DNA of 64,000 nt from Siphonodentalium dalli. Taxonomy: Eukaryota > Mollusca > Scaphopoda > Gadilida > Siphonodentaliidae. The notes beneath the pieces are model-generated. The model saw only the letters and a program-made list of their open reading frames with translations, searched no databases and had not been told where the DNA came from. Of this stretch, positions 10,861 through 58,125 are shown in pieces. The translations under genes and the position numbers were made by a program. The DNA is taken from contig CP136067.1 of NCBI GenBank assembly GCA_032622095.1, forward strand, positions 54,227,899 through 54,291,898. The letters are read 5' to 3'. Numbering within the stretch: position 1 is the first letter of the stretch; each line of letters begins with the position of its first letter.

Positions 10861-10899
10861 GGTTATAGGGGGGGGGGTCTGAAAAATAGAAAAATAAGT

Positions 10900-11510
10900 A
10901 CATTGTGGTCGTAGTTCTATAAAATGATTGTTTATGATTGAATAATCGTCTAATCTAATACAAAAACAAGAAACGAGCCTTGCATCCAAGTTTTTAAAAT
11001 GAAGTTATTCGCCACCCCCACCCCCCCCCCCCCCCCCCCCCCACCAACCAAGCAATTCCGGTCGCAAAATTTTTGTTCGCAATTCCACTTCCAGTTCTAT
11101 TAAATTACAGTTCATGAATGAAGAATCGTCTAATCTAATACAAAAAAAGAACTCATGTTACATCCAAGTTTTAAGATTAAAGTTATTCGCCACCCCCCCC
11201 CCCCCCCCCCCAACCACACACACACCCACCATGCAACTCAGATAGCAGATTTGTGTTCCACTTCCAGTTCTATAAATATGATTGATTATGATTGCTGGAT
11301 CGTCTAATCTATTGCAAAACAATAGCAAGCTCATCTGACATCCACGTTTTAAGAATAAAATTATTCGCCACCCCCCCTCACCAACCAATTCAGATCGCAA
11401 ATTTTGGTATGCAATTCCACTTCCAGGTCTACATAAATTTTTTTTATGATCGAAGAATCGTCTAATCTAATGCACAAAATAAAAAGCTCATCTGACATCC
11501 AAATTATAAG
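10900..11510 (-). repeat. Satellite array S1, minus orientation arm (first part)
   Basis: Units of about 150-160 bp with 'ttcgcaattccacttccag', 'gaatcgtctaatctaatgc', 'gctcatctgacatccaa' and 'aataaaattattcgccacc' followed by C runs. The longest C run is 22 bases at 11021-11042. The array is cut at about 11511 and resumes at about 15405 in the same unit. Confidence 0.85.
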
Positions 11511-32803: not shown

Positions 32804-32887
32804 TTGTCCCATTTCCGCGTGATCAGTCAATCCGAGCTCCGCATCCTGTTCCACATTTTGCAACTAACCAGGTGAGAGAAAAAAAAA

Positions 32888-32963
32888 ATGCCTAGAACAA
32901 AAAAAGCTGCACGAATGGCCAAAAAAGGACGTACGGCCGCTGCTATGGATGCTGATAGTTCTG
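32888..32963 (+). CDS. dsRBD (ADAR-like) gene, first coding exon
   Basis: The ATG at 32888 has A at -3 and opens a 25-codon exon ending GTTCTG|gtaaat in phase 1. The peptide MPRTKKAARMAKKGRT is strongly basic and looks like a nuclear localisation signal, followed by AAAMDADSS. The split last codon joins exactly in phase with the exon at 52138 (G + AC = Asp). A donor-like 'accag|gtgaga' at 32868-32876 just upstream could end an alternative non-coding exon that would skip this ATG. The start lies only about 85 bp downstream of the GC-rich end of the inverted-repeat element at 30269-32803, so the core promoter may include transposon sequence. Confidence 0.7.
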
Positions 32964-33604
32964 GTAAATGTTTATTTCGTATCCATAGTACTGGTATTTT
33001 GTGGATGGTTATACGACAATTGGGGGAAAACCTTCATTTAGAAGCCGGAAAATCTGGATGACAGGATTTCGTGCTAAGTTGTCACGTGATCGGCCGACGC
33101 CGTCATTTTGAATTTGATTGTGAATCTCGTGCTTCAATTTGTGACAATAATTCAAGAAATAGAGACTCAAAAACATAACGTAAAAGCTTATAATTTTAAG
33201 AGATGCAATGATAACATGACTAAGGTTAAATAAAATAACACCTGTTTTTAGGGTAACCCACCCGCCCCAACAAAACAGGCCGCCGCCTCACCATTTATTG
33301 ACATTGTTTTTTTTATATTATATATATTATAAATTTTCCTATTTTTTCTCTCTCACTTAAAATAAGAAAATGTGCAACTGGCAATTGGCAACCGGAATAA
33401 GCCATTGCTTTAAGGACTTTGCAAATGCAAACCCAATTTCCCCCCAAATTTGATGTCCAGAGTCAAAATAAAGGATTAATTTCACTTTTATTACTATATA
33501 ATATTAGGCCTAAAAAAACGTGACATGGGGAAAGACATATATACATGTATCTGTATATGGTACGTCCTTAGTGACCAAATCTGGCTTTTGCAGGACGTTG
33601 GGAG

Positions 33605-34957
33605 TAGAGCTGAAACGCATGACCCATTCTTCTAACCGGTTAACCATCGGGGTTAACCGGATTTCAACCGCTTAACCGCTAAATTTCTAGCGGACTTCTC
33701 TCACACTAATTATGTCGACATTATGCCATGCTCCAGGGACAAACCTATGTGAGAAGTAGTAGCTGAAATAAAGACCTTATTCACGGCATTTAACGATATT
33801 CAAAAACACGCATTCACTGTTCTTTTGCTGGCTCTCGTGAGTCGTGATGGGGAATGAGCAAGTGAAATTTGTGAATGGCAGGGGAGATCGCTTATTTGCC
33901 GTGATCAGCATATGTTTGGGCATTTGTAAAACGAGTAAAATAGTATGGGTATTGGTAAAACGAGTAACAAAACTATATATTAAAGATCTGTAATATATCA
34001 TTATCATCATTGGTATATCCTCAAATGCATTATATATAAAGACAAGAAAGTAATAACTAGGGAACAAAAAGGAAGGTCAGTTAGGTCAGACTCGCAGTCC
34101 TATTCAGTATTCGAGCTATTTGTCGGTATCGTGATAGCGGACACTAGTGTTGGGAGGTTATATAATTTACGTTTCGGTTTTACTTTTAGTATGCAATCAC
34201 TTAACATATAGCAATTACTGCCAAATTGAGTGTTAATTAGTCCCACAGGCACAACCAGTTACAGAGTAGCATGGAGCATCAATTAAATTTCCTTGATACA
34301 AGGGAAGATTATTGAAGAAGTTTTGGGTTGCTTCAACTACGATGTCTGTTTGGTCACTCAATTGAATTGATCATATTAAATCACAACAGGGAGGAAGAAC
34401 GGGAAGAGTGAAGACATTGTGCAGCTGATCTCAATCTTCAAACTTTGTCGACTTACATAGTTTTTATAAACTCTACTGTAAAACAGTTTTATATATAGTA
34501 TGTCGTGGTGTGATTCCAATTTGAATCCATGTTGCTTCGTGCAGTATTAACTATTAAGTTACGAAAGCACGCATTGCCACACAACGCCACTTTTACATTG
34601 TCACTTCCTTGTGTGCATTCAGACTTGATACACAGTGACTGCACACGTGCTTTTGTCGGAAGAAAACTTCAAAGGGTCAGAATTGATTGAAGGTCGCCGA
34701 CACTTCCAGACAGGTCGAGAATTGCTACTAAGTATCTGATATTACCGCGTGTACCAATTAATGCTTGCATTGCACTCTACTATCGGTGACACAGGATTTA
34801 GTATTAGTTTTGCATCATTTAACCTAATATTTTGAGGATTATTCACGTTCACATTCAACTGACAACGGGATGCGGTTACGTCCGGTTCATTTTTTTCTAA
34901 CCGGTTACGTCGCTAACCGGATGCTAACCGGTTAACCGTCTAACCGTTTCAGCTCTA
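33605..34957. mobile_element. Non-autonomous hAT element, TSD gttgggag, TIR tagagctgaaacg
   Basis: The left end 'tagagctgaaacg' (33605-33617) is the exact reverse complement of the right end 'cgtttcagctcta' (34945-34957). gttgggag is duplicated at 33597-33604 and 34958-34965. 'ggttaaccg' words cluster inside both ends. The 1353-bp interior has no recognisable transposase. It sits immediately next to the 3' end of the retrotransposon. Confidence 0.92.
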
Positions 34958-34970
34958 GTTGGGAGGAGCG

Positions 34971-37298
34971 CTATTGATGTTCTCCCACGGCCGACTTGAA
35001 TGTATCTAAGTCGGCAGCGTTGACTGTGGTATCGTCCAGATGGTTCCAGTCAATCACTGTTCTTGGAAAGAAGGAGTTTCCAAATTGATCCGTGTTTGGC
35101 GGGATCAGTTCGAATGCACTTTCGTTGTTTACAGTTCGTTTTTCTACGATGTTATCACTAACAAAATCGTCGAACTTTTTAGCTTTCCTCTTTCTTCTTG
35201 GTTTATACTCTAGTGATCCGAATAATAGTAGGGGTCGGAATAATAGTAGGGGGTGGAAAATTTGCCAAATTTTAATAATAGTAGGGGTCGGAATAATAGT
35301 AGGGGGTGGAAATGTCAATGAAAAAGGAGATCATTGAAGAACACTGATTTAATTATCAAACAAAAACTTATAATAAACACTCCTCGACCCAGCACGGACA
35401 ACGTCTGGTTCTTGCAGAACCTTTTCAATGTCATTGATTTGAACGGATAACACTGCGTCAACACTTTTATACGAATTTTCAGTTCCAGCACAAGGCTCGA
35501 AAAATCTAATTTTCTTTGGTCGGAATCGGTCCACCAACTACTCAATTGTGTTCTAATTAAAGAAACTTTCAAACGTGAGCCCCAGACGTTGATTAACTTC
35601 TTAGTTAATAACGCGTCAATTGTAAAAAAAAACACAGACATAACGCGTTGTCACCTTTGTTCGCCTCACTGAACGATAAACAATACCCGCAGAGGGGGGT
35701 CTGTCTATTGCAATAGGGTCGCACGAATTGCAAAATAGCGACACGTGCGAGGATGGAGTTACTTCCCATCGATCAAATCATTGATTATATTGCGATGCCA
35801 GACGGTTGCGCGAATTCTTTGAACGTATTCCGTTTTATGCATGCCATTTGATTAAAAACTACGAATAATGCGATCATTCATGGAGTATGGGTGATCAAAA
35901 TTACCGACCCCTTAACCACCTTATAAAATAGTGCTAGTCTCTGCTCTGATCTTCTTGATTCTAGTGATGGTAACTCTAGATCCTTGAGCATGGTTGTCAC
36001 ACAGCCTTTTTCTCTTGATCGGTAGTCTTGTTTGATGAATCGCGCTGCTCTTCGTTGGACCCTCTTTAGTTTTGATTTGTCTTTCTCGTAGTATGGGTCC
36101 CAGATTGTTGCTGCGTATTCTAGTTGGGGGCGAAAAAGTGCTATATATGATGTTTTCCTGAAATCCCTTGGGCAGTGTCTCAGGTTTCGTCGAATGAAGC
36201 CCAGGGTTGGATTTGATTTCTTTGTGATGGTATCTATGTGGTGCTGCCATGTCATGTCGTTTGCGAATTGGACACCGAGGTAGGAGTTGTGATTTACCTC
36301 TTGTAGGAATTGTCCCGCTAGTTGGTAGAAGCGTTGGGTTTTCTGCTTTAGGCTCATGATGTAGCATTTGGATGGATTGAAACGCATTCCCCATTTTATG
36401 GCCCACTGTTCTAGGTTACATAGGTCCTGTTGTAGTATTTCATGATCTTTATAGCTATTTATCTGTCGGTAGAGCAGGCAATCATCTGCGAACAATCGGA
36501 CTTGTGATTTTACAGTGTCCGGTAGGTCGTTGATGTGGCATAGGAAGAGGAGCGGTCCTAACACTGTTCCTTGTGGTACCCCTGATAATACCTCTGCCTC
36601 TTCAGAGAAATCTCCTTCCAGTGCCACTCTCATCTTTCTTTCTTTTAAGAATGACATTAGCCACTGGTGGATCGGGCCTGTGATTCCGTAGTGTTTTAGC
36701 TTGACTAGTAGGCTGTCATAAGGCACAGTGTCAAAGGCCTTAGAGAAGTCAAGGATGGCCATATCTATCTGCTTCTTGTCAAGTGAATTTAGGATGTCAT
36801 GTGTTGTCACTGCCACTCTGCCAGTTGGGTTTCGCAGGAGTATCCACTACGGAAGCCATGGTTTAGATTTGTTAGGATATTGTATTTTTCCAGATGTTCA
36901 AGGATGTGGCGGCAGATGAGGTGTTCCAGCATCTTGCATGGTACTGATGTTAGGGAGACTGGTCGGTAGTTCTCTGCTAGGTGTCTATCTCCTTTCTTGT
37001 ATACCGGTGCTATGTTAGCACTGCGCCAGTCGATTGGTAATGTACCTGTGTCCAGTGAGTGTTGAAAGATTAGTCTGAAGGCAGGTGCCAGTTGTTTTGC
37101 ATACTTCTTCAAGATCATGTTGGGTATTCCATCTGGGCCAGATGCTTTTGAGGGGTTCAATCTCTTCAGCAAGGCTTCAACTCCGTTCACTGCCACTGTT
37201 AGTTGGTGTTTGGTAAATACTGAGTGGAATTGCTTTACTAGGACTTCTGCTTTGCCTTTTGAGTCTTCAACTAGTTTTCCGAGATGTTTTAGTGGTAG
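34971..37298 (-). pseudogene. Non-LTR retrotransposon reverse transcriptase, truncated, frameshifted and interrupted
   Basis: Reading the minus strand from about 37298: GKLVEDSKGKAEVLVKQFHS (pre-RT linker), LLKRLNPSKASGPDGIPN, ANIAPVYKKGDRHLAENYRP and LNHGFRSGYSCETQLA. A one-base frameshift near 36825 moves to the frame with ILDFSKAFDTVPYDSL, LSGVPQGTVLGPLLF, the catalytic LFADDC (codons at 36495-36478) and a thumb region with RFNPSKC and YLGVQF. The C-terminal tail (RRKRKAKKFDDFV, FFPRTVIDWNHLDDTTVNA) is beyond a 678-bp insertion and ends at a stop near 34971. The endonuclease domain and 5' part are missing; upstream of 37298 the sequence is unrelated. The catalytic FADD is intact, but the breaks make it inactive. 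It looks jockey/CR1-like; the clade is unproven. Confidence 0.93.
35219..35896. mobile_element. 678-bp insertion in the retrotransposon, possible 6-bp TSD gtgatc
   Basis: RT homology stops at codon ILIT and resumes at LEYKPRRKRK, with 'gtgatc' at 35213-35218 and 35891-35896. The insert begins with a duplicated 'aataatagtaggggtcggaa' block (about 35220-35310). It carries two overlapping minus-strand frames (VWGSRLKVSLIRTQLSSW and RFRPKKIRFFEPCAGTENSY) that look like one protein with a frameshift, but I do not recognise it. There are no clear TIRs. Confidence 0.7.
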
Positions 37299-37790
37299 AA
37301 AACAATATAGTAGATTGTAGATTGATATGATATAGGTTGAGACTACAGCAGCTGCATCACTCTGGTTAACAGTGAAATAAAATTGCAGCAATAGCAGTAA
37401 GACAGGCATCAAAGGTTTGCCGCCGGTTGTCAACGACATGTCATTGACAAAGTAGGTCACTTGCTGCATGACGTGTACTATTGAAATATGTCATTAAAAT
37501 TGAGGTCACTCCGGTCAGGTCTGTGCTTTGATGATCAGTGGACCACTAGCGACTGATCTATTAATACAATGTGTTTCAAGAAAATGGCATCGTATTGTCC
37601 ACACATGTAAATTGATACAATGCGGTCTGTTGGCCTCGCGGTTACTCTGTGATAAATATGGAATGCTTATCACTTTTATTACTTATTGTGGGGGATTACC
37701 TTAATTTTGTGTTAGATACTGATTCAACATTGACCTTTCTCGTTCATGACGACCGCTGCTTACTTGCCTGAATAGGTAATAACAACATGC
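37299..37790. other. Non-coding stretch upstream of the retrotransposon
   Basis: No gene seen. The hydrophobic ORF extension at 37299-37469 is upstream of RT homology and probably chance. Confidence 0.4.
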
Positions 37791-37794
37791 AATT

Positions 37795-37889
37795 TGTGTA
37801 TCGAGATACGTATCGTTTGAACGCCCGTATCGATGACTGTATCGTCAGTGCTGTATCGCGGTCCAATCGATGTATCGTTACACCCCTAC
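37795..37889 (-). mobile_element. hAT-like terminus with 'gtatcgatac' subterminal repeats
   Basis: Reading inward on the minus strand from 37889, 'taggggtgtaacgataca' is a common hAT end. Inside it are repeated 'cgatac/gtatcg' words at 37799-37860. No second terminus was found nearby, so this is a fragment. Confidence 0.5.
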
Positions 37890-38089
37890 GTTTGTCACAA
37901 AATTGTCCCCTCTTTTCACCAAAAGGGTCAAAATTCTGAATGGCATAAAAAATAACCAAAATTTTTTCTATATTAAAGTTATATTGTCTATAATAGATAT
38001 AGCAGTTAGTTTCATTACAAAAGCAAAATTTCATCTACATCTGTATAATGCTCATTGTCATTGCGTGTGTATGCATGCATCCATCAGAC

Positions 38090-38370
38090 AATGGTTTCGG
38101 GATGATAGCTTTAATTTGGGTTATCGGATTGGGACCAAATTTGGTATGGAGTTTACCAGTCAAAGGACAGGTCCATTTCAATTGTAGAGTTCTTCCGATG
38201 ATTTTTACCAGAGTTATGGCACTTTTTTACTTAGAATTTTATCGTTTTGGAGGTTTCTGGATGATAACTTCATTCCAGGTTTGGTCATTGGAATGGAACC
38301 AAAATTAGTATGCCAGTCCAAAATTCAGGTCAAGTTCAAATATGGGTAATTTGAATCTAAATTGTCTCTC
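38090..38370 (-). repeat. 'gggccataactc' family unit, inverted
   Basis: In reverse complement it reads 'attctaagtaaaaaagtgcc', 'ataactctggtaaaaatcatc' and further family words. ORFs here are repeat sequence. Confidence 0.6.
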
Positions 38371-41300
38371 TTAAATTTGTTCTGGTTTCAGATCATTCAC
38401 TACAATAACACTAATTCCACTTTTCAAACCAGGAAACATAATATATCTGCAGCCGCCCTTGAAATTTCCATTTTTTCCTACGGCATTTCTTAAGAATTGT
38501 ATGAATTACTATATTGTTTTCTACAGCTTTTTCTATGGCAATGCCTTTTGCCATGGCTAATTTTGAGGTCTGACTGTAGTGTGTCTGGTTTGTCCCAATG
38601 TGTGCTGGATGGCTAAATCCTCTGACTTGCAGTGGTTTAACAAGGAAGATCTGACATAGTATTAGTAGTAATCCTGTACACGTGCGCTGTTCAGAGAGCT
38701 TTATCCTTTGATGGACTTGATGGTGGCGGTTGAGCGTATGATGTCTGTCCTTGGTAATCCGCTAACATAATCCATGTGACAATCAAAACACTTGTCACCT
38801 GGCGGATGACATTGCTTTCGGGTAGCAAACTGAGTTTTAAAAGTGATGAAAGGATACAAACATGTAGATTCAACGTAAAAAATGTATACATGTATATCTT
38901 GACCGAACATAATCCATTATTTGGACTCTATCAAATTTTGGACAAATTGGGCCCACAAAGACCTTATTAAGATAGTGAACACTGAACAGTCATTATTTTG
39001 TCATTTTGTGAAGCTAAATTTGATAACCACAGAATGTCTCGTGATATATATGCAATATTTAATATACAAATTATTAAGTGATAGAATTAATTCAATTTAC
39101 GACCACATGGTTTTGTTTATGTATTCCTTACACTTACGATTGCTACCGCGTAACTCATGTCATACAAATGGTAAAGAGGCAGTCTCGGAATAAAAACAGC
39201 ATTTCGCTATCCCAATATCTTGGCTGGTTTTCTTACAAGCAGACTTGGACTAACACCAATGTTGGCAAGCGGTTAATTGACAACATTGGTACTCTGTCTG
39301 CTACCACTATCCTCAAAGTAATTGACTTGAAAAACGGGGTGATATGCCGATGATGACCGTAGTATTACCGGTAGTATACGGTATCCACAGGTAAAAAGAT
39401 GGTCACTCTGTGAGAGTTACTGTAGCATCCGTTATGATACTGTATTCTTTTAGAGGGGCATCACACCAAAAGTCGGGGGGGGGGGGGGGGGGAAATATAT
39501 GAGTATCTCGTTAAGTTACACAGATATAAGGAGAATCACTGCACGCGTAATGCCAATCTCATTGTGGCCTGACACCAGGTGATGGGTCAAGTTTATCATT
39601 TGACAGCTGAAACAATGTCATCAACTTCAAAGTCGTGTAAAGTCACAGCCTAATACATTGTGGGGTACTCAGCTGGAAGTCAGTGGAAGATTTATACAAT
39701 GAAGACCAATAATGTTGCATTCACAAAAACTGCATGTGATTAGTGCTGTAACTGATATATGGATATCCGGTGACAACTGTCAGCCACCTGTTAAACTGTG
39801 GTTAACCGCTATGTAATACACAAAATGCCAATGACAAAAACTAACATATTCAGGTCCCTCATCAGCACGAGATTAACAACTGTAGCTTTTAAACATGTGT
39901 ACTTTAATATTAATTTTGCCACAAACTTTATCACTCAGAGGGGTATATTGTCGAAACTACGCATATTAAAAATCAAAATCTGGTGCGAAATAAAAAATCG
40001 TTCATGAAGGGCAAGTTACATAGTCTGGCTTTGGCGGCTTAACATCAAAGATGGATGATGTCGGCTATGATGTTCAGATATCCGGTAAAACACGTGCACT
40101 GAATCATCGGCTAACAGGGATTTTTTTAGGTGTCCTCAGGGTCGGGTAAACGGTCCCATTCCCAATGGGAAAAAGGCACCTTTATTCCCAATTTTCAACC
40201 ACCAAATTCCCAATTGCAGGCAGGTATATAATATCATCGGGTTTATTGAATAATTATCAAAGTTTGACAGTTATTATAGTAAATACGTCACTCGCTTGGG
40301 AGGAATTCCCACAAATAAACATAGCAGGGCGAGCCAGGTGTTTACCTCCCCGCATTCATTTGAAATTGGCCGCATCCGACTTGTAAGCCAGTATATATTA
40401 CTTTCGCACACGTGGTTGCTAGGATTATCTCATTATCAGGGGGACGCACCATGTTCTTCCAGAATACACATCCCCCCGCATTCCGTTAAATGTGGACTCA
40501 TCGGTTTACGATTAAGCCGTGTATCCATGACGTTTGCGCACGTTTTCAGCAGGATTATCTCATTATTAGGGGGGACGCACCATGTGGTTTCCGGAATACA
40601 CATTTTTTACTGTGGCAGCGTGGGGCTCCATTTAAACAAATATAATCTTGCAGAGAAGAAAAAGCTTGCCGAGTTATGTATAAAATATAAAAATTTCACG
40701 TCCTCACCAGCTGTCCTCGCTGTTAATTTTATTAACATTTGCTGGAATTCTGAGCATTTGATTGTGTTCTCCAACAGAAAGCACTGTTTTCAGCTGATTG
40801 TTTAAACTTCATAATTGTGTTTATCTGTCGTCAGTCATCCTACATCTCAAATCGCTGAAGAACACCCAATAGTTAGAATACCTGAGACAGTCACATGACC
40901 TAATATTTGCCCAGTCCTGCAATCACAATAAACAGCTGCCGCGATTTGCATGTATGAAAATTTATACATGTCTAGCAATATTCTTCCCGATTGAGAGCGA
41001 TAACAAGTTGGGTAGCACTGCAATACAAACAGGTCAAGCATGACACGTCTATTTATAAATTCTGCGAGTTTTAGTTCAATGTGTCATCTGTCAAGTTGTC
41101 AACACATGGCTTTTTACCGTTCGTGTTTGCTGATTTACTACTGTTTAATACAAGCTCTGTGTAAACATTATGTGAGTTCGCCAAACAGTTAATAAATCAA
41201 ATTATGATGATATATTGGTAACATATTACTCTCGGGCTCCAAATAAAAGTGCAGGCCCAATTAATAGTGCAGGGGGAGAATTCCATTGAAAGTTAATAAA

Positions 41301-41466
41301 AGTGCAGACCCAAATAATAGTGCAGGGGGACTCTGAGCAAAACATCAACATACAGCAACTGTGGTTAAACAAATTATTTTTATATTAGTTCAAGTGTAGG
41401 AATCAACATAATATGTGTCATGTGGTGTTTTATTCAATATTTAAATGTTCTCATGCATTCTATATA
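38371..41466. other. Intronic stretch with local repeats, no recognised gene
   Basis: Contains an 18-base G run at 39475-39492 and a diverged ~130-bp tandem duplication at about 40349-40610 ('aggattatctcattatcagg' at 40421, 'aggattatctcattattagg' at 40551). It also has 'agtgcaggcccaa/agtgcagacccaa' repeats near 41250-41330. The 169-codon ORF at 40296-40805 spans the tandem duplication and shows no domain. Confidence 0.5.
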
Positions 41467-41841
41467 CCCTGCTGGACAAAACAAGTGTCCACTTAACCGC
41501 AGTGCAGTTAGCGTTGCCACCGCGGACGAAATGCAACTACACTGCGGTTCCACCGGCTAACAACAGTTGGGCTGCGGTGTACTTGCCATTCGGCCATGGT
41601 GTAGTTGCCGCGGTGTACGTTCATTAAACTGAAAAAAGATTATACAAACCCGAAATCTAACCACGATGTACATGCCATTCGGCCGCATTGTAGTTGCCTT
41701 TCGGCCATGGTGTACTTGCCGCTCGGCTGCAGTGTACTTGCCGTTCGGTCGCGGTGCTCAACTGCAGTTACAAACTCTGACACCGCGACCGAACGGCAAA
41801 TACACCGCGGTGCCAATGGACACTTGTTTTGTCCAGCGGGG
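41467..41841. mobile_element. 375-bp mariner-like MITE, TSD TA, TIR ccctgctggacaaaacaa
   Basis: A left end 'ccctgctggacaaaacaagt' and right end 'acttgttttgtccagcgggg' pair over about 25 bp with one mismatch. TA flanks both (41465-41466, 41842-41843). The GC-rich interior is a minisatellite of 'gtgtacttgccgttcggccg'-like words of about 24-27 bp in both orientations. It is non-coding. Confidence 0.88.
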
Positions 41842-42498
41842 TACACTGTATTTGAATATGTACATGCAAAAAGTTATAAGTACATCATTTTGATATCAGA
41901 ATAATATAGAAATCTTGAGTTTGTGCTGAATTAAATTTTCATAGCCTCAAAATTAATAAACATGCAAACCCAAATAAGCTCTGTGCAGGGGGGAAATTTC
42001 CCAAGAAAATAAACGTGCATGCATGTTTATTTGGATCCCAAGAGTATTGTGTAAATAATGAGTGTAAAGGTTGAAAATAGCGGATATCCGGTTACATGTT
42101 GCGGTTAACCGGCTACAAAAATAGGTCAACCATTTCAGCACTGCACAGGATTTTTTTAGTAACGGTAATTGTAACATTTTTGCTTTTAAGTGCTTCAAAT
42201 TCCGGATGCATCACTGTTTTGAAGCGGTAACCATGACGCGGTGTTGGTGGTTACCGTGGTATGTTACTGCGATATTACCGGGGTGACACCACGTCACAGG
42301 TGGTCAGTTACTTTAGGGACAGCTGTAGGATATTCCCTGCCAATGTCCATGTCACTTCTTTAATAAGGTAGATCATGAGGTCATGGTGAACCATCAATCG
42401 ATCTGACTATGTAGCGGTCGTGTTGTAAATATAGAAGGCCGATGACTTCTCTGCTCGAGAGGTCTAAATCTCTTGTTCAGTCTTTAGGTGCTGTGTGT

Positions 42499-42582
42499 GA
42501 TCATCGAAGTTAAGCAACCTCGAGCTCGGTTAGTCCTTGAATGGGTAACTGGCTTGGGATTCCGGATCATTCCGGGTGCTGC
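42499..42582 (+). rRNA. 5S rRNA-like pseudogene or derived repeat, copy 1
   Basis: Matches the 3' two-thirds of animal 5S rRNA in order: 'gatcatcgaagttaagcaac', 'gagctcggttagtcctt', 'gatgggtaact'-like 'aatgggtaactggcttggga' and 'ccgggtgctgcc'. The internal promoter A-box region ('gaagttaagcaac') is well kept. An 8-base insertion ('ttccggatcattccggg') disrupts the helix near the 3' end, and the first ~35 nt of 5S are not recognisable. It is unlikely to be a functional 5S gene. Confidence 0.8.
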
Positions 42583-42821
42583 CAACTTTCTGTGCAACTC
42601 CCACGCTTCTCTCTCTAGTTCTGTTAAAATGTGGGCTCGTCTGGCCCCTCAGAGGACTTTGTCATGACGCGACCGATCTGGGGGGAGGACTCAGGGTGAG
42701 ATTCAGTGAATCTCAAAAAGAACGGGGTGTAGTGTAGCGGTCGTAGTGTCAATATAAAAGGCCAATGACCTCTGCTCAAGAGGTCTTGATCTCTTGGTCA
42801 CAGTCGTTAGACGCTTTGTGT

Positions 42822-42895
42822 GATCACCGAAGTTAAGCAATGTCGAGCTCGGTTAGTCATTGGATGGGTTATCCGCTTGGGATTCAGGGTGCTGC
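42822..42895 (+). rRNA. 5S rRNA-like pseudogene or derived repeat, copy 2
   Basis: 'gatcaccgaagttaagcaat', 'gagctcggttagtcattgga', 'tgggttatccgcttggga' and 'cagggtgctgc' follow the 5S consensus and are closer to it than copy 1 (no insertion). The 5' third is again not recognisable ('cagtcgttagacgctttgtg' instead). It ends with no clear T-run terminator directly downstream. Confidence 0.8.
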
Positions 42896-42959
42896 AAACA
42901 TTTGGTGCGACTGCTGCACTTTTCTCTTGTTCTGTTACACTATAATAACCCAATCAGGA

Positions 42960-45900: not shown

Positions 45901-47420
45901 TTTGTCTGCTGAAAAATGTGCGAGATTATCATTTTCTAAATCGGCAAAGTTGTGGATAGGATAATTAATGATTTATACTTCCGTTCTCATGGTAATTTTG
46001 TGTTTATTCATAAAATAAAATCATGTGGATAATATTCACATGTTGCCATCATTTGTTACGTGAAAATTCCTCTTGAAAATTGTTTATTCATGGGATCACA
46101 GTCACCTATTGTCGATCTAAATATTAATAAAAGATCAAAATTGTGGAGACAATTCCACAATGATGATCCCCCACCCTTGGGTGCAATTTTTTAAAGGTAT
46201 ATTGTTTTATAACGTTCAAATTTTTTTTAGGGTAGTTAGGAAACAAGATCTCCATATATTTCTTGTTGATTTACATTATCAGTTCATAATGATGCCATCG
46301 TGTGTGAATTCAAGAGCAGCCAGATTTTTTTGAAATTCTATAATAAAGAAGATATTTCTAACTGATTAACTGTACATAATTAATTTATCTAATTATAACA
46401 TTAATATCATACATGTATTGTACAATCAAATATATAGCCCTAGAAAGGAAATAAATTTCTGTGTGTGATCTATACTATCATTGGGGAGGGGGAAATGAGT
46501 TGATTTAGCTCATAGAAGACATTTATTCACCATGTACCTGTGATGAAGTTAATTAGCTCTTTATATCAGTACATGTACCTTATAGAGCTATTGAGGAAGT
46601 TAATTTAATTAATTTCCTCACAGATTCATGCTGCAATTTCTTCTATATGATGCTATACAGGATTATGATTTCATGTTTTAGTCATAAACAATAAATATCA
46701 TTATATTCTGGGGGTTATTCAGATTTATGTCGAGGAAAGTTGAAAATAAAATGAAAAGCAACACCCCCCCCTTATTTTTTTCTTGCATGACGATGACACC
46801 AGAAACAGATATATATTTTTTTGGCCTAAATAAAACATGACCACATATCGGTATCATTGACTCAAAATATATCTAGATCCGTATCGTCTCGTGGCATGTG
46901 TATCGCGATACATATCATACCGCAACACAAACGTATCTTGACACCATTACCAATTGCCATTTTGAATGGGTAATTTTCCCAAAAGAGGATTTTAGCGGAT
47001 TTTGTACATGTTGTTCAGCAAAAGATTTTAAGACCAAAACGGCTCCTTTACCAATTTATTCCGGGTCTAACTGCCAAACAACCATCCATGTACTAAGTAT
47101 GTAGACACGGAAAATAGATATTTTCACCACGTGATCGATGTTTTGTCCTTGTTATGAAGAATATGTCTCAAGAGCGTTTGTGTAACGTTGATTTTGTTTG
47201 TGTCATTAGCAAAGAAAATATCCTCAAGCCCTATTGTTGAGAATCTATTTTGGTTACGTAAAATTAGCCTTGACTCAAAATAAATCTTTATTTTCAAGTT
47301 CTTGATGGAAAATAGCAATAGCGAACTGATGAGTTTTTATTTCTCTGTTCATTCCATATGTTAACATGGCAAAGGTGTCTTGTATCATTACACAAACGTG
47401 ATTGGCATTACACAAACACG
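42960..47420. other. Intronic stretch with short repeats, no recognised gene
   Basis: Contains an imperfect hairpin at about 43185-43256 ('catgaatctctactctggct' and inverted partner). Three direct copies of 'aacctgggtaactttatcac' lie at 44354-44430, with an inverted 'acccagg' just before. 'gctcgctgg...aggcgcgc' words occur near 43890 and 44772, and there is a fragment of the R1 start at 45300-45370. The rest is AT-rich DNA. No exon found. Confidence 0.5.
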
Positions 47421-47430
47421 ATTGTCATTA

Positions 47431-48735
47431 GGCCTAAAAAAAAAATATGTTTGTTTCCGCTAACCCGACCGACCCTATTTTAAACCCCTGACCCTAAACT
47501 TTTTATTGACATTACAAAAAAATTAGGTCCCAATTCATATCATAACAAGATGCAAAACATTTATATATTTATATATATTGACATAAGAAATTTAAGTTTA
47601 CAAAAAGATTTAAGTTTAACAGTTGGAATCATACTGTAAAGTATGTTTGGCTTTATCTCGCTTTCATCTGTGAAAACTTCAAATAATTTGAGTTCAGGTA
47701 TGTTATCATTCAGCGTTCAGACTTCAGTATTTCAATCAATTACAGCACAGGAACATTAACAATTTGATCAAATCAACCTGGTTATCAAGTGGGATCTCAT
47801 AATACCAAATGAAAAATTAACATAGAGATTAGTACCATATATAGTCATTACTACCTTAATACATGTACATTGTTTCTGTACTACATGTAGTATTTCTGTA
47901 CTACATGTACATGTAGTATATTATGTACGGTATGTGTCTCACTTGAATTTTATAAAATAGCCTATTTATGAATTAGAGTGATAATGGCAAGTCTCATTTC
48001 AAGCAGGATAAGCATAATCCATTGAACCAAAAGTTATCTGACAATAACGTATAAGCATTTCCAATCCATACATATATAAAAAGTTCCAAAGTTATGCTTG
48101 AGAAACTTGATCAAATTGACCTCTCAGTAAAATTCAAAATACTGACTCAAAGAGCCTTAGATTAGCTCTAAATGCAATGGATTTTCAAAAAAATTCCAGG
48201 GGGCGAACCCCCACCATCATCAGGGAGTCACCCTTCCCAAACATTCCTCCGATCAGGCCTTCAGGTTATGCCTTTTGGCATATCATTGCCCAAAAACAGG
48301 TGTCCCCAAAAAATACCTAGATCATTCACTGAATGCGGAGGAGAAGGTGGTGTTGTGAAGCCATCCTTAAGAGATTGGTACAAGACGGTCACTCCAATAT
48401 GTGAACAGTGCAGTGGTGCTGGATTGACTCCAGTTGTCGCCAGACCATATGGGAAATATTAGGATTATCAAAGACTATATTAGTATATAGACTAGTATAT
48501 ATGTAAATATTAAAGCATATGTAAGATTGAATTGGAGTTTCTAGTTCCTCTGTCATCTGGGTTAACCTGATTGGGGCTAAGAAGTGCATAGTTTGGGTTA
48601 TTGACAAGTATTATACAGTTATTTTTAAAGATACTGAAAAAAAAAAGTTAACAAATAAAAAAAAGTTAAGCCTACCTACCTACCCTAATATTTTTTAGCT
48701 CGTTAGCGGAAACAAAGGTATTTTTTGTTTAGGCC
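47431..48735. mobile_element. Harbinger-like MITE, TSD TTA, ~36-bp TIRs (ggcctaaa...tttgtttccgctaac)
   Basis: The left end 'ggcctaaaaaaaaaatatgt' and right end 'attttttgtttaggcc' pair, continuing through 'tttgtttccgctaac' / 'gttagcggaaacaaa'-like sequence. TTA flanks both ends (47428-47430, 48736-48738). It is inserted in a 24-bp direct repeat 'cattacacaaacacgattgt', and the flanks rejoin that repeat. The interior has no transposase. A 96-codon ORF at 48172 shows no domain. Confidence 0.8.
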
Positions 48736-48738
48736 TTA

Positions 48739-50632
48739 CACAAATGCAATTGTCATTACAGAAACAGTTATTATATGAAATATATCCATATTGATAGGAA
48801 TTCGAGATTGAATTCCATTTAATATCTTACCCGTGTTGCATGGTGTTCTTCGATGGCAATGAGTATCACTAAGTATAATCCCAAATTTTTTAATTTTTAA
48901 TAAGACTGAAAATAATTATGTCCGGGAGTTAAAATTTATTGTGTAAAAAAAAATCTTAATTTTCAAACATCCCATTGAAGTTGACAATCCAATCTACTGT
49001 TTTAACTATGGTTTATACATACGTCTGTGAACTTATGAAAATGTACAAACACTGCAGACTGGGTTCAGATTCGCATTTGTGAGTTCAACAGAAACTATGG
49101 TGCGTGTCCGTTTGTGGTTACAATGACAATAATAACTTTGAACTTGACCTTGAACATGACCTTGCCATTGATCTTGAATTTTGCCTTGGCTCGATTTATG
49201 AAGAATAACACGCATCCTATCCAAAAATGAATATCATGTAGCATGGAGTTCAATTTTTATTTTCATCTCTTTTCTCAATTTGAGTTTTTTTTACATTTTC
49301 TGTAGAAACACCCTATTATCTGACAATAAGTTGAGTAGGATCATGGAGTCTACTTCAAAACAGAAAGCAAATTGAAATGGGTCGTGTTTATTTTACCATA
49401 CCTGTAAAATAAAGTTAAAAAAAAAATGTTCAAATGGAATTACTGAGACTCATTTAATCGTCTTCTCGGAATTTAGTGCTGTTGTCAGTTTATTATGTCA
49501 GGGGGTTCTAAACAAAAGGGTCAGATAGCACTAAATCTATTAAGTACTTCAAAAATATTTTTCTCCAGTTCAAGATGGCACATGTACCGGTAGTTAATAC
49601 TTGCTGTGAATTATTGCCATGAACCATAATTTTTCAATTTGTTCATATTGTCATGGTTGACTGAATTTTAGGGGCAACAGGCGCTTAGAAGATTACATTG
49701 AAGGTTAATGCAATTTAGCCTTATAGTGTTAGAGCTACTTGTAAAACATAATGTGTGAAACCGTTTTTATTGAGGGCTACTTATTGTCTTTTATATGAAC
49801 TGTGGTAATCTGTTTCAAGTTGTCATAGGGGTCAGCATCCTCATCATATTATGGCTGTATAAATACATGTATTATACAGAGATCACTTTAAAATTTGTAT
49901 TGTCTAAATATTTTTCTTGAGAGCTACACTGACCACCAGTGCAGCATTGAAACTCGGACACATAAATTCAAATAATTTGAGAATTTGTGTTATTATGGCA
50001 TGTACTTTTGTCTATACATGTACTTCTTCAGTTACAGTACAATGTTAAGTATACTCTATAAATCAACATCAAAACTCTCGATTATGATTCCGATCATAGC
50101 TATTTATTATCACCAATGGATGGGTTAAACATCTGCCAATCATGATCAGCTGCTCGTTAGCAATTATAGGGCATGTATACATTGATGTCAGGTTAACTCT
50201 GATTTAAGATGACAAAAATTCATGTACTAAAATAGCATTACTTCACTAATTTCCATTGCAAACTCATTAATACTACCTGTCCCATGGTGTTTCACAAAAG
50301 GCTGTATTACAATATATAAGATACATGTACATGTAATCATTGTTTCTTATTTTGCATATTGATCTAGCAAAATAAAACACATAACAAATTATTTTCATTA
50401 ACTAAGATGATAGACTTCATGATTCATATAAAACACAACATTTGATTAGCACTATGATTGCAAATGTGGGGGTCCTCAAAGGTAAGCCCAGTCCCTAGTT
50501 TTTGTGTCAAAAAATCCCCCTCCCCCCTGGGTTTACTGATGTGTGTATACAGTATACATATTAAATTTAGATGTTACAACAAGCTATTTGATTATTCGGT
50601 ATTTATATGGTATTATTCTGATCAGGGTTGGT
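48739..50632. other. Intronic stretch, no recognised gene
   Basis: Short 'gaccttgaacttgaccttg' repeats near 49140-49195. A dispersed repeat at 50040-50150 (inverted to 5945-6060). A partial copy of the 20487 MITE at 50468-50560. Confidence 0.5.
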
Positions 50633-52106
50633 GATTTTTTTGATTTTTTTAAATAAATCAATTTTTTTTTATTATTTGATTTAAATCAGATTTATTTGAT
50701 TTAAATTGATTTTTTTCTAATTGTTATGAAAATATGCAATTGTGCAATGTCTTTGATAAATGAAGGTTCTAAAAGGTGTTGCTTATTATATCCAAGGCTG
50801 GATTAATCAAAATTCTATTATTATTTATTATTTTTGCGGGTTCACCAATTTCTAAATTGGGTGACAAAATAGGTCGAAACACTAATAGGCAGTGTATAGT
50901 GCTACATAGAATTTCCCATCCATAGTTCTGATGGGATGTTGGTATTTATCCAACCATATATAAAATAAGTTGCATATAATATGCAAATACAAAAAATTCC
51001 GCATATAAAATGCGCAAAACAGGCATAATAGTATTTTATATTTAGCATAGTAGCTTGCTCAAACTATGACTGATACAATTGCTCTAATAAATTAGAAACA
51101 TAAGTCACCCTATCTAAATTGATGGAATCTATAAATTCCGGTCTCAAAATAATCATTAAAGTGGCATGTAATATGCTCTATTATACAATTGGCACATATC
51201 GTGCATGACCGTGGAAATTGTGCTACTGGCCTCGACAAATCAGGCCATTAACATTTAAAATAGGCATATATTATGCCCATCTATTTATTACGCTGTCCCC
51301 CGATGAAATTCCGCGTTGCCACTATCATACTATAGTGGAAAAGTGAATCGAAACATATGCTCAATTTAAACCATGACTATCCGGGAAATGTAGGGACATT
51401 GAACACAGATCACTAATCTGTTGTCGATTGTTGGATATATTTCACAATCAAAAAAATTCAAAACATGTATCAAGCACAAATATCACGGCAGAACAGATAT
51501 AGCGACCATGTACTTTAATTATGCATACACTTAGGTCCATGTGAGTTCCAATGTTGTGATATCTGGAAAAGTAGACCTGTGCTTAAAGATTTACTGATAC
51601 ATTTAGTAAATTTTAGCTGAGAACTGAATATATTATCAATCACCTTTTCTCCTCGGTGACTTGAGGACATACATGTAATCACACCATATATCAAGTATGG
51701 ATAACTAGGGTAGTTTAGATGGCAGAGTATATGGTAGAATTACTTGGTTGGCATTTACATGTATTGCAATCAGAAAAGGAAAGGAAATTTAATAGTGTAA
51801 TGGGGAGTGCTGAATCTGATTGTAGTTACAACTAAGCGAAACAGGTAGTTGCTGGAGCAGTACCGGTAGTCACAGAACCATGCAGTATGCCTGTTTCTAT
51901 AGGGTTGACAATTACTGCACAATTTCATATCTATTATCCAATTCTGTATATTGTTTAATCATAATCATGTTATAATTTACAAAAGACCTTGTTAGATATT
52001 GAAAATTCTTGAGATATGCAATCATTTCAAAATATTTGATTTAAATCAATGATTTTTTTGAAAAAAATCATTGATTTAAATCAATGATTTAAATCAGCCA
52101 ACCCTG
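50633..52106. mobile_element. hAT-like element with 'gatttaaatca' subterminal repeats, ends beside exon 2
   Basis: The left end 'cagggttggtgattt' (50633) and right end 'aaatcagccaaccctg' (to 52106) form a terminal inverted repeat with one extra base. Multiple 'gatttaaatcaatgatttt' repeats lie at both ends. I found no matching 8-bp duplication. The right terminus is 31 bp before the exon at 52138, so the branch point or pyrimidine tract of that exon abuts the element. Confidence 0.75.
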
Positions 52107-52137
52107 AAATTTCAGATTTCTCTATTTATGCTTCCAG

Positions 52138-52281
52138 ACGGAACTGCCTGTATCGAAGCTGGAGAAGATCAACAGCAGATGCCTGACCAAGCAAAGCAGA
52201 CGCAACAAGTGGGCGATCAGGGGACTGTAGTTATGAATGACCCAAACACTGCTCTCGACACATCTAGTCAAAACCCTCAAA
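52138..52281 (+). CDS. dsRBD (ADAR-like) gene, exon 2: acidic/Gln-rich linker
   Basis: Preceded by 'tttatgcttccag' and followed by gtatgg, this 144-bp stretch is open only in the phase that joins exon 1 (phase 1 at both ends). The 48 codons encode a low-complexity, Gln/Asp/Thr-rich linker such as DGTACIEAGEDQQQMPDQAK. The donor GTATGG is weaker than consensus. The exon has no domain of its own. The evidence is phase agreement and splice sites, plus GC content higher than its surroundings. Confidence 0.7.
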
Positions 52282-54362
52282 GTATGGATTCTTGATTTTT
52301 TTTTTTTTTTGGGCCATAAATTAAATAATTATAATGGCCTTGTGTTCTGAAAATTTTGATACAAAATGTATTGGAATACCTTTAACACAAAAAGGTTTTC
52401 TTCATCCATTCCAACATGTGTTGTCTTCTGTGCTAGATATCTGAGACCCATATTTCGCTTTGATTCCAGAAGATACTTTAGTCTGGTGAACACAGTCAAA
52501 TTAAAATGAATAATGTTTAGGGGTTAAAAAAAAAAATACGCAAGCTGAGTTTGAATCGTAATTTGGCCCAAAGATTTTATGGCCCATGTTCAACTATGGC
52601 TCGTTGTTGGTCACTGCCAAACTTGGTACGGTATAATATAAAAGGCAAAACAAAAACAAAAAAACGTGTTTCCTACCTGGAAATTATCATGAAATTCTCT
52701 TCCATTTTCTATTAATTTCAGTTACTGGTTGAATTCTATGAGTCATTAGCCTAATTCACTGGCAAAATCATGCTCACAAAACACCAAACCGGGGTTAGTG
52801 GGCTAACAAACATCCAAAAATGCATTACCTCGAAAATAGTTAACTTTAAACTGGAATACAAGTCTTTTAGACATGGCCCAAATATGTTTATTAACTCAAT
52901 TCGATATGTGTAGGGGGTGTTAATAGAAATTAAATGACTTGGACATAATAGTATATGACAAGTGAGTGTCAGTTGTACAAATTCTCAGAAGTCTGCTAGG
53001 TTGCCATTATAAGGTGTAACCCCAGTATGAAAATCGGACACAAGCATTGAGAACTTGTGGGAATGTGGAGATTTTTATACAGGGAACACAGCATGTTATT
53101 ATGTAATAGCTAATTGTACTGGACAGTAGTGAACTTTAAATACTCGTATCAAGAATCTGTCATATATTAGGACTAAAATTTTAATATAATAATTTCTACT
53201 ACTGTCATAAAGTCTATATACCATATCACATACACGTAACACCCTTCCTGCCTCAAAATTTTAACACAGTTGTTTTAAGATCACCATATTCTGTGTCTGA
53301 TCTCCAATGGCAAAGTAACTTTTTATTCTACTTGGGGTTTTTTGGAAACTTTTTGAAATCTATCTTCTATTTTGAAATAAACTAAATGATCCACAAGTAT
53401 TTTATCACATCACATGCATATTAAATTCCTTTCAACCCATCTTTACTGTGAATCTGTCATATATCGGTAAGTTGGAACGTAAAAGGCACAAGTTGGAAAC
53501 AATAAATTTTAGGATGGATAGACCAGGTTGGTTATTGCGGCCTTGTGGAGATACATATAGGCATCAATCAGACTATTGACTTATTTGTGCTTGAGCTAAG
53601 CTTATATTATTTACCGAAGTTAAAAAAAAAATTCAAAAAAAAGACTACCTGGATAATAAAAATCCAGATAGGAATTTTTTTTGTTAGGAATTTTTCTACC
53701 GGTATGTAATTGGAAACTGTTATTTTTTATTTTTTTTGGGGCCTACTACTGAATTGTCTCAATACAGGTCAAGTTTCAATCATGGTTTGGGTACGGGACT
53801 GTGCCTGTCCATCTGCTCTCATAACTCAGCGGAACGGCGGAACATGTATAAAATAAATCATTCTAGCCCTTATTCTACTCAGTTCTATCCAGTACATAGT
53901 CAGTGATCATGCTGCGAGAAAATTCTTTTGGCCTATTTTGTGGCCATTTCTGAACTTTTTTGTACATTTTTCAACATTTCCGAAATTTAATAACAATAAT
54001 ATTGGATCATCATGATTTGATAAAACTGATACTAAAACAAAAATATAAAACACATTGCAAAAAACTGTTAAAAATTGATAAAATGACAGCCGGTAATGTC
54101 TATCAACATGAAGGAGCATTGATTTGTATTAATTATCTTATCTCACTTGATTAGGGAAGGACACCATTTTGGCGGCTTATTATTGTTTTGATAAATAAGC
54201 ATGTGTGATTTTTGATAGAATTGTTATCCATGCACGGGTGAGCCACTGATGCAGAGAGGGGATTGCTGATGATAGCCTTGAAACCTTTTATGGCCATTTT
54301 CCAAAAAAAATGGCCGTTTGGCAACTGACGGCAAACCCTGCATATATTATCTCTTTTTGCAG
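52282..54362 (+). other. Intron 2 of the dsRBD gene (inferred)
   Basis: 2081 bp between gtatgg and ctttttgcag. It contains R1 copy 2 (52640-53275) and AT-rich DNA. Confidence 0.6.
52640..53275 (+). repeat. Interspersed repeat R1, copy 2
   Basis: Collinear with 2998-4055 but internally shorter: 'ctcttccattttctatta', 'gagtcattagcctaattcac', 'atcatgctcacaaaacacc', 'aacaaacatccaaaaatg', 'aaggtgtaacccc', 'acccttcctgcctc'. Confidence 0.65.
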
Positions 54363-54490
54363 CCGCGGAAACAGTCCATACTGGTGAGTTACCAGCTGGT
54401 CAACAAGAACTGGATATAAATGAGAGAATATCAGCCATCAAAGACTTTGTTAATGATACTGTTAGTGGTGAAGGTCAACCAATGGATGAC
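54363..54490 (+). CDS. dsRBD (ADAR-like) gene, exon 3: linker
   Basis: 'tctctttttgcag' precedes 128 bp open in phase 1, ending GATGAC|gtgagt in phase 0, which fits exon 4. It encodes AETVHTGELPAGQQELDINE, then RISAIKDFVNDTVSGEGQPM and DD, an acidic helix-forming linker. A second perfect donor word (ACTG|gtgagt) lies inside the exon at 54383/54384; its use would give a phase-1 end that does not fit exon 4 and would shift the frame. Confidence 0.75.
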
Positions 54491-57400
54491 GTGAGTGTTG
54501 ACACTATTATTAATTTTGGAAAATATTTCCTACGATCACTATTATTTGGCAAAGAGACATAGAGTGAAATTGCCATCACTATTATTTGGCAAAGAGACAT
54601 AAGAGTGAAATTGCCATCACTATTATTAATTTTAGCCAAAACTCCCATACATCACTATTATTACGCCATCATTATTAGCAGCCTTCATAATTGGCTATGG
54701 CAATCAGCATTGCCGAAGCAATTTGCTGAAGCAAACTGGGCCACGGCATACTGTTGCCGTAGCGGATTGCCGAAGCCAAACAATCTGAATTAAGAGGGCT
54801 GTTATTAGACACCTTAGAGTATACATTGCAGTATTTTTTGACAAACAATGTAATGTTCAAAATTGCAATGTGAACTAATTGAGTCTGAAGTCACGGCATA
54901 AATCAAGCTGCTACCACCCGTATTCAACTTCAACTCGATTCCTGAAAGTAGACAGGCTGAATAATGTAATGTATCTATCTCACTAATGAATTGATGTGTC
55001 TTTGGATGGATTACATTGATCATGATGCATCATATCGGACACTCTTTATGCAATGCTGTGCAATAGTGAATACATTTTTTTATTATCCATCCCTGAACTG
55101 ATTATCACTCTTTCTGATTGGGAAAAAGCCGTCATATGATAATCTGGGAAAAAGTCATATTGGACTCGATATGACTTGTATAAAAATTATCGCGACTCCA
55201 TGACGTCATTTCTATAAACATACAGGTGGATAATAAAAATGTCATTATACAATGTTGTACTCATCCAGGTTATGGTGAAAAAGTCATATTGGACTCTATA
55301 CTTTTCACCATAACCTGGACTCGTACAAGAAAAACACATACTGTACACAACATTGTACAATAACTTTACAGTATTGCACTGGAATTGAGTTCTGATGGTA
55401 ATGAGAGAGGAAATTGCTGGATATAGCCTTGACACTTTTTATGGCCATTTTCTTTGACTCCGGGTGAAAAATATTTGACTTGAGTCCGGAACCCACACTT
55501 CACAGATTTTTATTTTTGAAACTTATTTTATCCACCTTGAATATTTACTGACATGCGCAGATGTCATAACAACAGTTTGGGAGGTCAATCAATGTCGCAG
55601 TAAGCGCGGCTTTTGTTATGGGATAATTCTCGGAATAAAAGACAACAAAAATTATCGATAGTATTACTAAAATTGACAATATCTTGTGATAGTTGGCATG
55701 TAGATGCATATGTATATATTTCCAATTCAGTAATCATGTTTTATTCATGAAAATAGACAGGTTTATAATACCATGCCAGTCACATGTGAGAGAAGATGTT
55801 TGTTTACATTTGATGACATGTGCTGGGAATTCCAGTACGAACCAGGACCATATATATAGAATTTGAGGTGGAGAAAATAGATTTCAAATATCAAATCTAA
55901 TTTCTCTGAGCTTTGAAGTTCTCAACTCAAATCAAATATTGTTCACACCAGAAGCCGAAGTAATAGTAATTTAGAAGTGTCAAAATGGCATCTTTAATCA
56001 TTGCAGACCTTACGTCTTGAGAGAAATGGTCTCCTTGACTCAGAAATATTAGAATTTTCAAACTGAAACTCGGCATAAGACTTAAAAAGGCACATTTTGC
56101 TAATCTGACTGACCCTATTTGAGGCTCTCAACTGGTAAAATATGATCAGGTGTCAAAATTTTCTATGGGACGTCGACTTTGTGCGCAAAACTTTTCATGC
56201 TGCTTTTTGGATTTTTGACAAATATTTGACATGGTGAAAAATAACATGGAAATCGAAATCTGATAACTTTGATGGTTGGGTTCCTCAACTCGAATCAAAT
56301 AATTTTTTGCCGACGAAATAGTAATTTAGATTAATAATCGGATTATGTGTCTTTAAGAAGATAAATTCCTCCAATATGGAGCCTCCGCTAAAGTACCGGT
56401 ACATGAATCCATTCCCTATATGGATTGTAATGGAAAATAAAATGAATGGCTTTTCCCACACAGTTCTAAAAGTTCTCTTTATAATGGTCTGTTCGACATT
56501 TGAAGGGACGTTCAGATAATATAAAATTATTAAGTATACAAGAGGCAGGGAAACACTGTCTTAATTCACTTTCTTATATAGTAGGGAAGTTTGGATAATA
56601 ATGGTGTTTGTTGGACCATAATTTGTACAGTGAATCTAGTGACAATAAAACTGGCTGTCAGAGATATCTTGGCAATATTAAGATTCAGACCAATAAATAT
56701 AAGTTTAAATTACTCATATCTCTACATTTATATGTCAAGCCTGCAAATAGTTTCTTAAAATTCCCCGGAGTGTGCCTGTCATTATGACAGTCACCAACTG
56801 ATTGGTGCCCGTCATATCAAGTTCAGTACCTGTCTCACATTTTAAAGTAAACCGAGCTTCATTTACACTTTCAAAACCCATGTTTCCCGGTATAATGTCA
56901 GTAATATTGCATTTTGTTATGGTTTTACCATCTATGACCTTGTTTATACTTGTTCAGTTTTGAACAACCTGATCAAAATCATCAAAAGCTTGATAGACAC
57001 TGTATTCGATGTCAAATTGCCATTTGCCAAGCAATCACTCAGTAAGGAAACAACCAGTGAAGTTTTATTAAGCTACAAATAAGAATCAAAGTATATTATG
57101 CTGCCTGGAACAAAATTAATATTTCAATATTAATATTTACATATATTTTGTCATAAAATATTGTAGCTAACTCCCATCGACTGTGTATGATAAATAGGGA
57201 GGATAGAGGTCATACATGTGTGTTCTTGATTTGTTATTGGGAGTGGAGAAAATGTAATCTCACACAATAGGCGTTTGACCAGTGGTTCAACAATCATTTT
57301 TTTCTCAACAGACTTCATTCCGCACACCTCGGTAGGCTCCCGAGTTTTGAGGAGTGCAGTATGTAATGGCGTCACTATGTGACATGACTCTCGTCCGGTT

Positions 57401-57881
57401 GTATATTTCTACAGCAGGACGGAAGTCGCCAAATTAGAATGCGCAGTCGAGCATGCACAGTTGCTACTGGCAAAATTTAATAACAAAAATAACCGCACAT
57501 GGGTTTGTAATTTTAAAAACAAGCTCATCAAACAAACGCTGCCAGTCAAGATGACAGATGCAAATAGATTTGTATCTTACATTTAGTTGTTTTGCGTTGG
57601 TCAACCCGTTGTCCGACCAATTGTTTGCAGGCTTGTTCAATGTATGCATTCTCAGTAGCCATCTAATCTAATTGATTCAGGTTCATGAGATTGCAGGGGT
57701 AAGTTAATTTGAAAGGAACTTACAATGATACTAGTCTAATAGAAATGATACACTGGTCCTGTGGTCCATCAAGGACAAAGTTTGTATTCAGTCAGTGTTT
57801 CCCAATAAATGTTTATAATAGTTATTTTGAAAACAAGATGAAACTGCAACAGTCATTGTATATTTTACTGTAAAATTATAG
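54491..57881 (+). other. Intron 3 of the dsRBD gene (inferred)
   Basis: 3391 bp. Begins with a 50-51-bp tandem duplication 'atcactattatttggcaaag' (about 54534 and 54584). Then the MITE at 54679, 'gtcatattggact' inverted words near 55150-55290, and R1-related fragments at 55900-56350. No further exon seen. Confidence 0.6.
54679..54801 (-). mobile_element. MITE, second copy of the 2152 family, 7-bp TSD ttattag
   Basis: Reverse-oriented copy sharing 'cttcggcaat', 'gtggcccagtttgc' and 'cctcttaattcagattg' with 2152..2279. The ends 'cagccttc' and 'gagggctg' are slightly decayed. 'ttattag' is duplicated at 54672-54678 and 54802-54808. Confidence 0.82.
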
Positions 57882-58125
57882 GAAGGAGGTGAATCCGGAG
57901 AGCCGAAGCTAGTGTTTAAGAACCCTGTGCAGTATCTCAATGAGATCCAGAAAGGGTCTATCTATAATTTGACGGATGAGGATGGTGAAGGTATGACTAA
58001 GACATACACTATGGAGCTGGAAATTCTCGAGCATAAATATTTTGGCACTGCTAGAAGCAAAAAGCTGGGTAAGGTTGCCGCCGCTCGGGTATGCCTGAAA
58101 GAGATGTTTAACACTATTTGTGAAG
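57882..58125 (+). CDS. dsRBD (ADAR-like) gene, exon 4: double-stranded-RNA-binding domain
   Basis: 'gtaaaattatag' precedes 244 bp open in phase 0, ending TGTGAAG|gtaaga (phase 1). After EGGESGEPKLVFK the exon encodes a nearly complete dsRBD at about residues 130-195 of the predicted protein: helix 1 NPVQYLNEIQKG, strands YNLTDEDGEG and KTYTMELEI, then YFGTARSKKLGKVAAARVCL and KEMFN. The KK-x-x-K-x-x-A-A motif at the start of helix 2, which binds the RNA phosphates, is present. The NPV--LNE opening and KKL-K-AA-----L--MF end resemble the second dsRBD of ADAR enzymes (A-to-I editing) more than Staufen, PKR or ILF3, as far as I can judge by eye. An ADAR would need a deaminase domain with HAE and two Cys motifs, which is not in the window. 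A dsRBD-only protein therefore remains possible. Confidence 0.85.

Follow-up and report, generated by a model that had tools for sequence, protein, structure and literature searches.

The forward strand of the 64 kb window (the whole stretch of DNA that was analysed, within which all positions are numbered) carries the 5' end of a gene of an ordinary animal kind, whose product is a dsRNA-binding protein. Going by its sequence, we read it as a diverged ADAR2/ILF3-type dsRBD gene of the ADAR family, a reading for which we see the chances as evenly balanced. The protein resembles RNA-editing enzymes and is likely to be one, and its deaminase part would fall outside the window. Below this reading we rank a dsRBD protein without a deaminase, then an ILF3-type gene, and last a chance assembly.

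Exon structure and the 5' end

The first-pass annotation had pieced the gene together from four exons, and we confirmed their coordinates, splice dinucleotides and phases throughout (Table 1). The exons are 76, 144, 128 and 244 bases long, with running phases of 1, 1, 0 and 1. A GT follows each of the four, an AG precedes exons 2 to 4, and once joined they form one open frame without a stop that gives a product of 197 residues.

Table 1. Positions of the candidate gene features within the window.
Feature	Position	Strand	Basis
Possible promoter or 5' UTR stretch	32601..32871	+	GC/CpG bin; ends in excellent donor CAG/GTGAGA
Candidate first coding exon (exon 1), 25 codons, basic start	32888..32963	+	Frame and phase (1) agree with exon 2
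Coding exon 2, acidic/Gln-rich linker, phase 1/1	52138..52281	+	Among three candidates of this kind in the window
Coding exon 3, linker, phase 1/0	54363..54490	+	Sole such candidate in the window
Coding exon 4, whole dsRBD of ADAR2/ILF3 dsRBD2 type, phase 0/1	57882..58125	+	PF00035, PDB matches, sole such candidate

To judge how unusual these exons are, we counted the stop-free AG..GT segments of the 64 kb in all frames of either strand, taking those of one to three times the length of a given exon whose two splice scores were at least as high as its own (the scores are simple ones, with assumed site frequencies). Neither exon 3 nor exon 4 has a competitor of like length and quality on any strand, and the two competitors of exon 2 share a single acceptor at 60966. 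These counts show unusualness and not an exact probability, because each exon's own scores served as thresholds and were picked post hoc. The acceptor of exon 4 is weak (24% of all AGs score equally well) and the donor of exon 2 is equalled by 9% of GTs. The ORFs of exons 2 and 3 had no Pfam match (up to E 0.1). In our judgement, three such consecutive exons with compatible phases are very unlikely to arise by chance, and exons 2 to 4 look real.

Exon 1 may be the start of the gene. It is one of seven candidates on the forward strand between 1001 and 52137 that run from an ATG to a donor, have a purine at -3 and share its phase; the whole reverse strand has 13 like candidates at 9 donors. Its own donor is of medium quality, equalled by 3.6% of GTs. 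In favour of exon 1, its peptide, for which the first-pass annotation described a basic, NLS-like start, is with 7 of 25 residues K or R (0.28) the most basic of the 20 candidates (7 on the forward strand, 13 on the reverse), but the exon does not stand out in its splice sites and frame. A donor of the form CAG/GTGAGA, with a score of 7.6 (top 0.06% of GTs), ends at 32871, only 16 bases before the ATG, and its use would make the ATG at 32888 intronic. The 200-base bin from 32601 has a GC content of 0.48 and a CpG o/e of 1.56, the highest of the 20 bins between 31001 and 35000 and above the 0.76 of the whole window; this GC/CpG evidence near exon 1 is weak because both values are almost as high in the bin from 34801 (0.45 and 1.52).

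It is quite possible, then, that exons 2 to 4 are right and exon 1 is not the start, its ATG being either intronic or part of no transcript. The gene could begin, for example, with a 5' UTR exon that stops at 32871 and be translated from a Met inside exon 2. The top donor just ahead of the ATG, the existence of seven comparable candidates (exon 1 included) and the in-frame Met codons within exon 2 argue for this explanation; the phase fit of exon 1 and its basic peptide argue against it. It touches the 5' end only and is compatible with every other reading considered here.

The dsRBD of exon 4

A dsRBD with a KKxxKxxAA tail had been described in exon 4, and it is present: an HMM search of the exon 4 peptide returned PF00035 (dsrm) with an E-value of 4.8e-5 and 24.3 bits, where the cut-off is 23. 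When the whole joined product of 197 residues was searched, the same domain scored 22.1 bits, slightly below that cut-off. Among the sequences of solved structures, exon 4 matched 25 up to E 10, in the order, by protein, of ADAR2, ILF3, the "editase Adar" 2ljh, TARBP2, and then Staufen and others. The best match was to ADAR2, the double-stranded RNA-specific editase 1, at 8.1e-14 over two domains (2l3j) and 5.2e-9 for dsRBD2 alone (2b7v). ILF3 chains matched at 5.8e-11 (both dsRBDs), 3e-8 and 5.1e-8, and 2ljh, which we take to be the fly protein, at 1.2e-7. Chains of the spermatid perinuclear RNA-binding protein were also matched. The ILF3 structure sequence gives two dsRBD matches to exon 4, and in both ADAR2 and ILF3 dsRBD2 is a better match than dsRBD1.

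Judged from these comparisons, the domain is of the ADAR2/ILF3 dsRBD2 subtype. The two proteins are poorly separated within it, with 37.0 bits for ADAR2 dsRBD2 and 33.7 for ILF3 dsRBD2. The earlier assignment to the ADAR family is thus borne out in that ADAR2 dsRBD2 is the top match, but ILF3 dsRBD2, the second closest, scores almost equally, so that the dsRBD alone does not indicate an editing enzyme. In the alignment with ADAR2 dsRBD2, the closest dsRBD by sequence, 26 of 66 columns are identical, and this 39% is presumably below what a true ADAR2 orthologue would show. An ADAR1-type dsRBD was considered and rejected: ADAR1 chains are in the structure library yet absent from the 25 matches of exon 4, and a direct comparison with ADAR1 dsRBD3 gave only an 11-residue chance alignment. 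A sequence taken for the dsRBD of human ADAD1 did not align with exon 4. Searches that reach close relatives only found 2 pattern matches in viral contigs and 43 in prokaryote genomes, none of which was confirmed. A structure prediction for exon 4 alone, made without relatives, had a mean pLDDT of 45.1 and the model was useless.

A review (PMC11120146) gives eight side chains of ADAR2 dsRBD2 as RNA contacts (N235, E242, S258, H259, R279, N280, K281 and K282). With the numbering placed by us so that all eight letters fit, an ungapped alignment shows that five of them are kept in exon 4 (N235, E242, R279, K281 and K282). The three others differ from ADAR2, with S258 replaced by G, H259 by M and N280 by S. 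We infer that the domain of exon 4 is a working but altered dsRNA binder. It would grip dsRNA via helix 1, with the N and E of NPVQYLNE, and via the KKxxK helix; both would be intact and the beta1-beta2 loop weakened.

Domain searches and the identity of the gene

No second dsRBD was found in the 2904 ORFs of at least 15 aa in the window. A five-sequence profile of ADAR2, ILF3 and exon 4 recovered among these ORFs exon 4, itself a seed (1.3e-34), and seven further ORFs, all with E-values of 1.1 to 9.4. The deaminase domain (A_deamin) had no match up to E 1 in any of the 76 downstream forward-strand ORFs of at least 24 aa, in a search that had no positive control for short exons; nor were Z-alpha or DZF among the matches listed for these ORFs. 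The absence of a deaminase says little, because just 5.9 kb remain past exon 4 before the window stops, while the introns of the gene span 2.1 to 19.2 kb. Elsewhere, A_deamin, Z-alpha and DZF were not among the matches listed for all 389 other ORFs of at least 50 aa on either strand, at E-values up to 0.1, nor among those listed for 184 of the 239 forward-strand ORFs of 28-49 aa starting between 26001 and 57881; the remaining 55 had no room for 60 bases from AG to GT and were omitted. Before 26001 these Pfam scans cover ORFs of at least 50 aa, and they could miss very short exons.

Fourteen candidates for a next exon with the right phase follow 58200, the best being 60966-61114. The open segment at 60966-61227 on the forward strand has, of all segments after exon 4, the two sites with the highest combined score, in the right phase, and may be either a fifth exon or a chance occurrence. 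We call no fifth exon because none of the Pfam matches of the ORFs of at least 24 aa there was convincing (the best had E 0.023).

Set against the features that distinguish the candidate families, the window offers the following. ADARs and ADADs have at least one dsRBD ahead of a C-terminal adenosine-deaminase domain (A_deamin), and exon 4 provides one dsRBD (PF00035). Of the features of an ADAR1, no Z-alpha domain was among the Pfam matches listed for the scanned ORFs (before 26001, those of at least 50 aa), and no ADAR1-type dsRBD was seen. Of the two ADAR2-type dsRBDs of an ADAR2, one was found, and another past 64000 is possible; as compared with ADAR2, the first dsRBD and the deaminase are missing from the window. 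An ADAD has one dsRBD and an inactive deaminase-like domain, and the window holds one dsRBD. The N-terminal DZF that precedes the dsRBDs in ILF3 and STRBP was not seen in the scanned ORFs.

The ADAR reading is favoured by the dsRBD of exon 4, which exceeds the Pfam cut-off, has ADAR2 as its closest solved relative, shares 26 of 66 columns and five of eight RNA contacts with ADAR2 dsRBD2 and does not match ADAR1 chains, and by the lack in the scanned upstream ORFs of a DZF, which an ILF3-type gene should have. It also agrees with the placing of a dsRBD ahead of the deaminase, described as the common ADAR order in PMC7762157. It is weakened by the lack of a deaminase exon in the 5.9 kb downstream, by the nearly equal score of ILF3 dsRBD2, by the lower bit score on the joined product, by the modest identity with ADAR2 and by the failure of the ADAD1 dsRBD to align. 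Under this reading, the protein would begin with an acidic, Gln-rich stretch without a recognised domain, to which exon 1, if used, would perhaps add a basic nuclear-localisation start, and would continue with one dsRBD, whole in exon 4. The 3' exons past 64000 would encode an ADAR-type deaminase domain, either active (ADAR-like) or dead (ADAD-like), and the dsRBD would bring this domain to its RNA. A more specific version, in which a lineage-specific ADAR2/ILF3-type protein with a single dsRBD has lost the beta1-beta2 loop contacts (G and M in place of S258 and H259 of ADAR2), hence recognises dsRNA through two canonical regions out of three, and edits, or blocks editing, with altered specificity, seems unlikely.

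A dsRNA-binding protein without a deaminase, with a dsRBD of the ADAR2/ILF3 type and akin to Drosophila DIP1 or Blanks, is a serious contender, if a somewhat less probable one than an ADAR. Such a protein would bind, carry or shield dsRNA and would not edit it. The 76 downstream ORFs without a deaminase fit this explanation. So do ILF3 and the spermatid perinuclear RNA-binding protein, which have the same domain type and are non-editing, and DIP1 and Blanks, which are animal dsRBD proteins with other functions. We assume the dsRBDs of these last two to be ADAR-like. On the other side, the end of the window cuts the gene, so that absent domains prove nothing, and Blanks has two dsRBDs where one is seen here. 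DIP1 has two dsRBDs as well.

That the gene is of the ILF3/STRBP (NF90) type, with exon 4 as its second dsRBD, is improbable. The E-values of the three ILF3 chains are in its favour, but ILF3 has an N-terminal DZF domain followed by dsRBDs, and neither the expected DZF nor a first dsRBD was found upstream in the scanned ORFs of the window, which speaks against ILF3. A chance assembly or a pseudogene, with no gene at all, could appeal to the weak acceptor of exon 4, but is very improbable given that the domain is intact, the frame open and the three phase-compatible exons nearly unique in the window.

First intron, surroundings and known relatives

The first-pass annotation had suggested that a single dsRBD together with a very long first intron full of inverted repeats would make an interesting editing-enzyme architecture. 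The intron does not fit this description: its 19.2 kb contain no more than 5 inverted pairs, each 27-35 bases long. Over 32700-58400 there are 7 pairs of inverted repeats of at least 25 bases, against 64 in the 25.7 kb of positions 1-25701, a control that is itself rich in arrays and thus shows what repeat-rich looks like, not the norm; the tool may miss gapped repeats. The inverted-repeat-rich part of the window is 1-25701, not the first intron. The latter contains a broken reverse transcriptase at 35881-37490, on the reverse strand and hence opposite to the gene. It is split between two frames that overlap, with RVT_1 matches of E 1.9e-22 and E 0.0012, and we take it to be of the LINE type.

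Several other elements were observed in the window. A likely exon of an HRG-kind haem transporter lies at 835-1227 on the reverse strand (Pfam HRG, E 2.2e-5, 25.1 bits, narrowly missing the cut-off of 27), and 4557-5234 and 10289-16187 are occupied by tandem arrays whose units measure 103-178 bases. The repeats of the window give the impression of a marine invertebrate. Weak Pfam matches were obtained for forward-strand ORFs (RVT_1, E 0.00016, in an ORF other than 4145-4489, and Use1, E 0.0008) and for one reverse-strand ORF (DUF5968, E 0.00023). Neither an Rfam scan nor a tRNA scan of the window gave a match.

A single dsRBD has been reported, in PMC7762157, for Pex-ADAR of the earthworm Perionyx excavatus and for ADR-2 of C. 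elegans. The gene would resemble them in having one dsRBD only, if it proves to be an ADAR. This likeness is one of domain count, and a deaminase is reported for both there whereas none is seen here. Lophotrochozoan ADADs, classed by one RNA-binding domain in Rosani et al. 2019 (PMC6651903), are alike by that description; the human ADAD1 dsRBD fails to align with exon 4. ADAR and ADAD genes have also been surveyed in 22 species (PMC9989829). Neither the dsRBD type nor the suggested single-dsRBD architecture is new, because single-dsRBD ADAR relatives are already in print; together with the scarcity of inverted pairs in the first intron, this removes both elements of the suggested novelty.

If the downstream exons encode a deaminase, the gene would be one more invertebrate ADAR or ADAD with a diverged dsRBD and would help to trace how the family gained and lost dsRBDs. 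If they do not, it would be another protein that has an ADAR-like dsRBD without being an editing enzyme. Either outcome would be a gain in gene annotation rather than a surprise.
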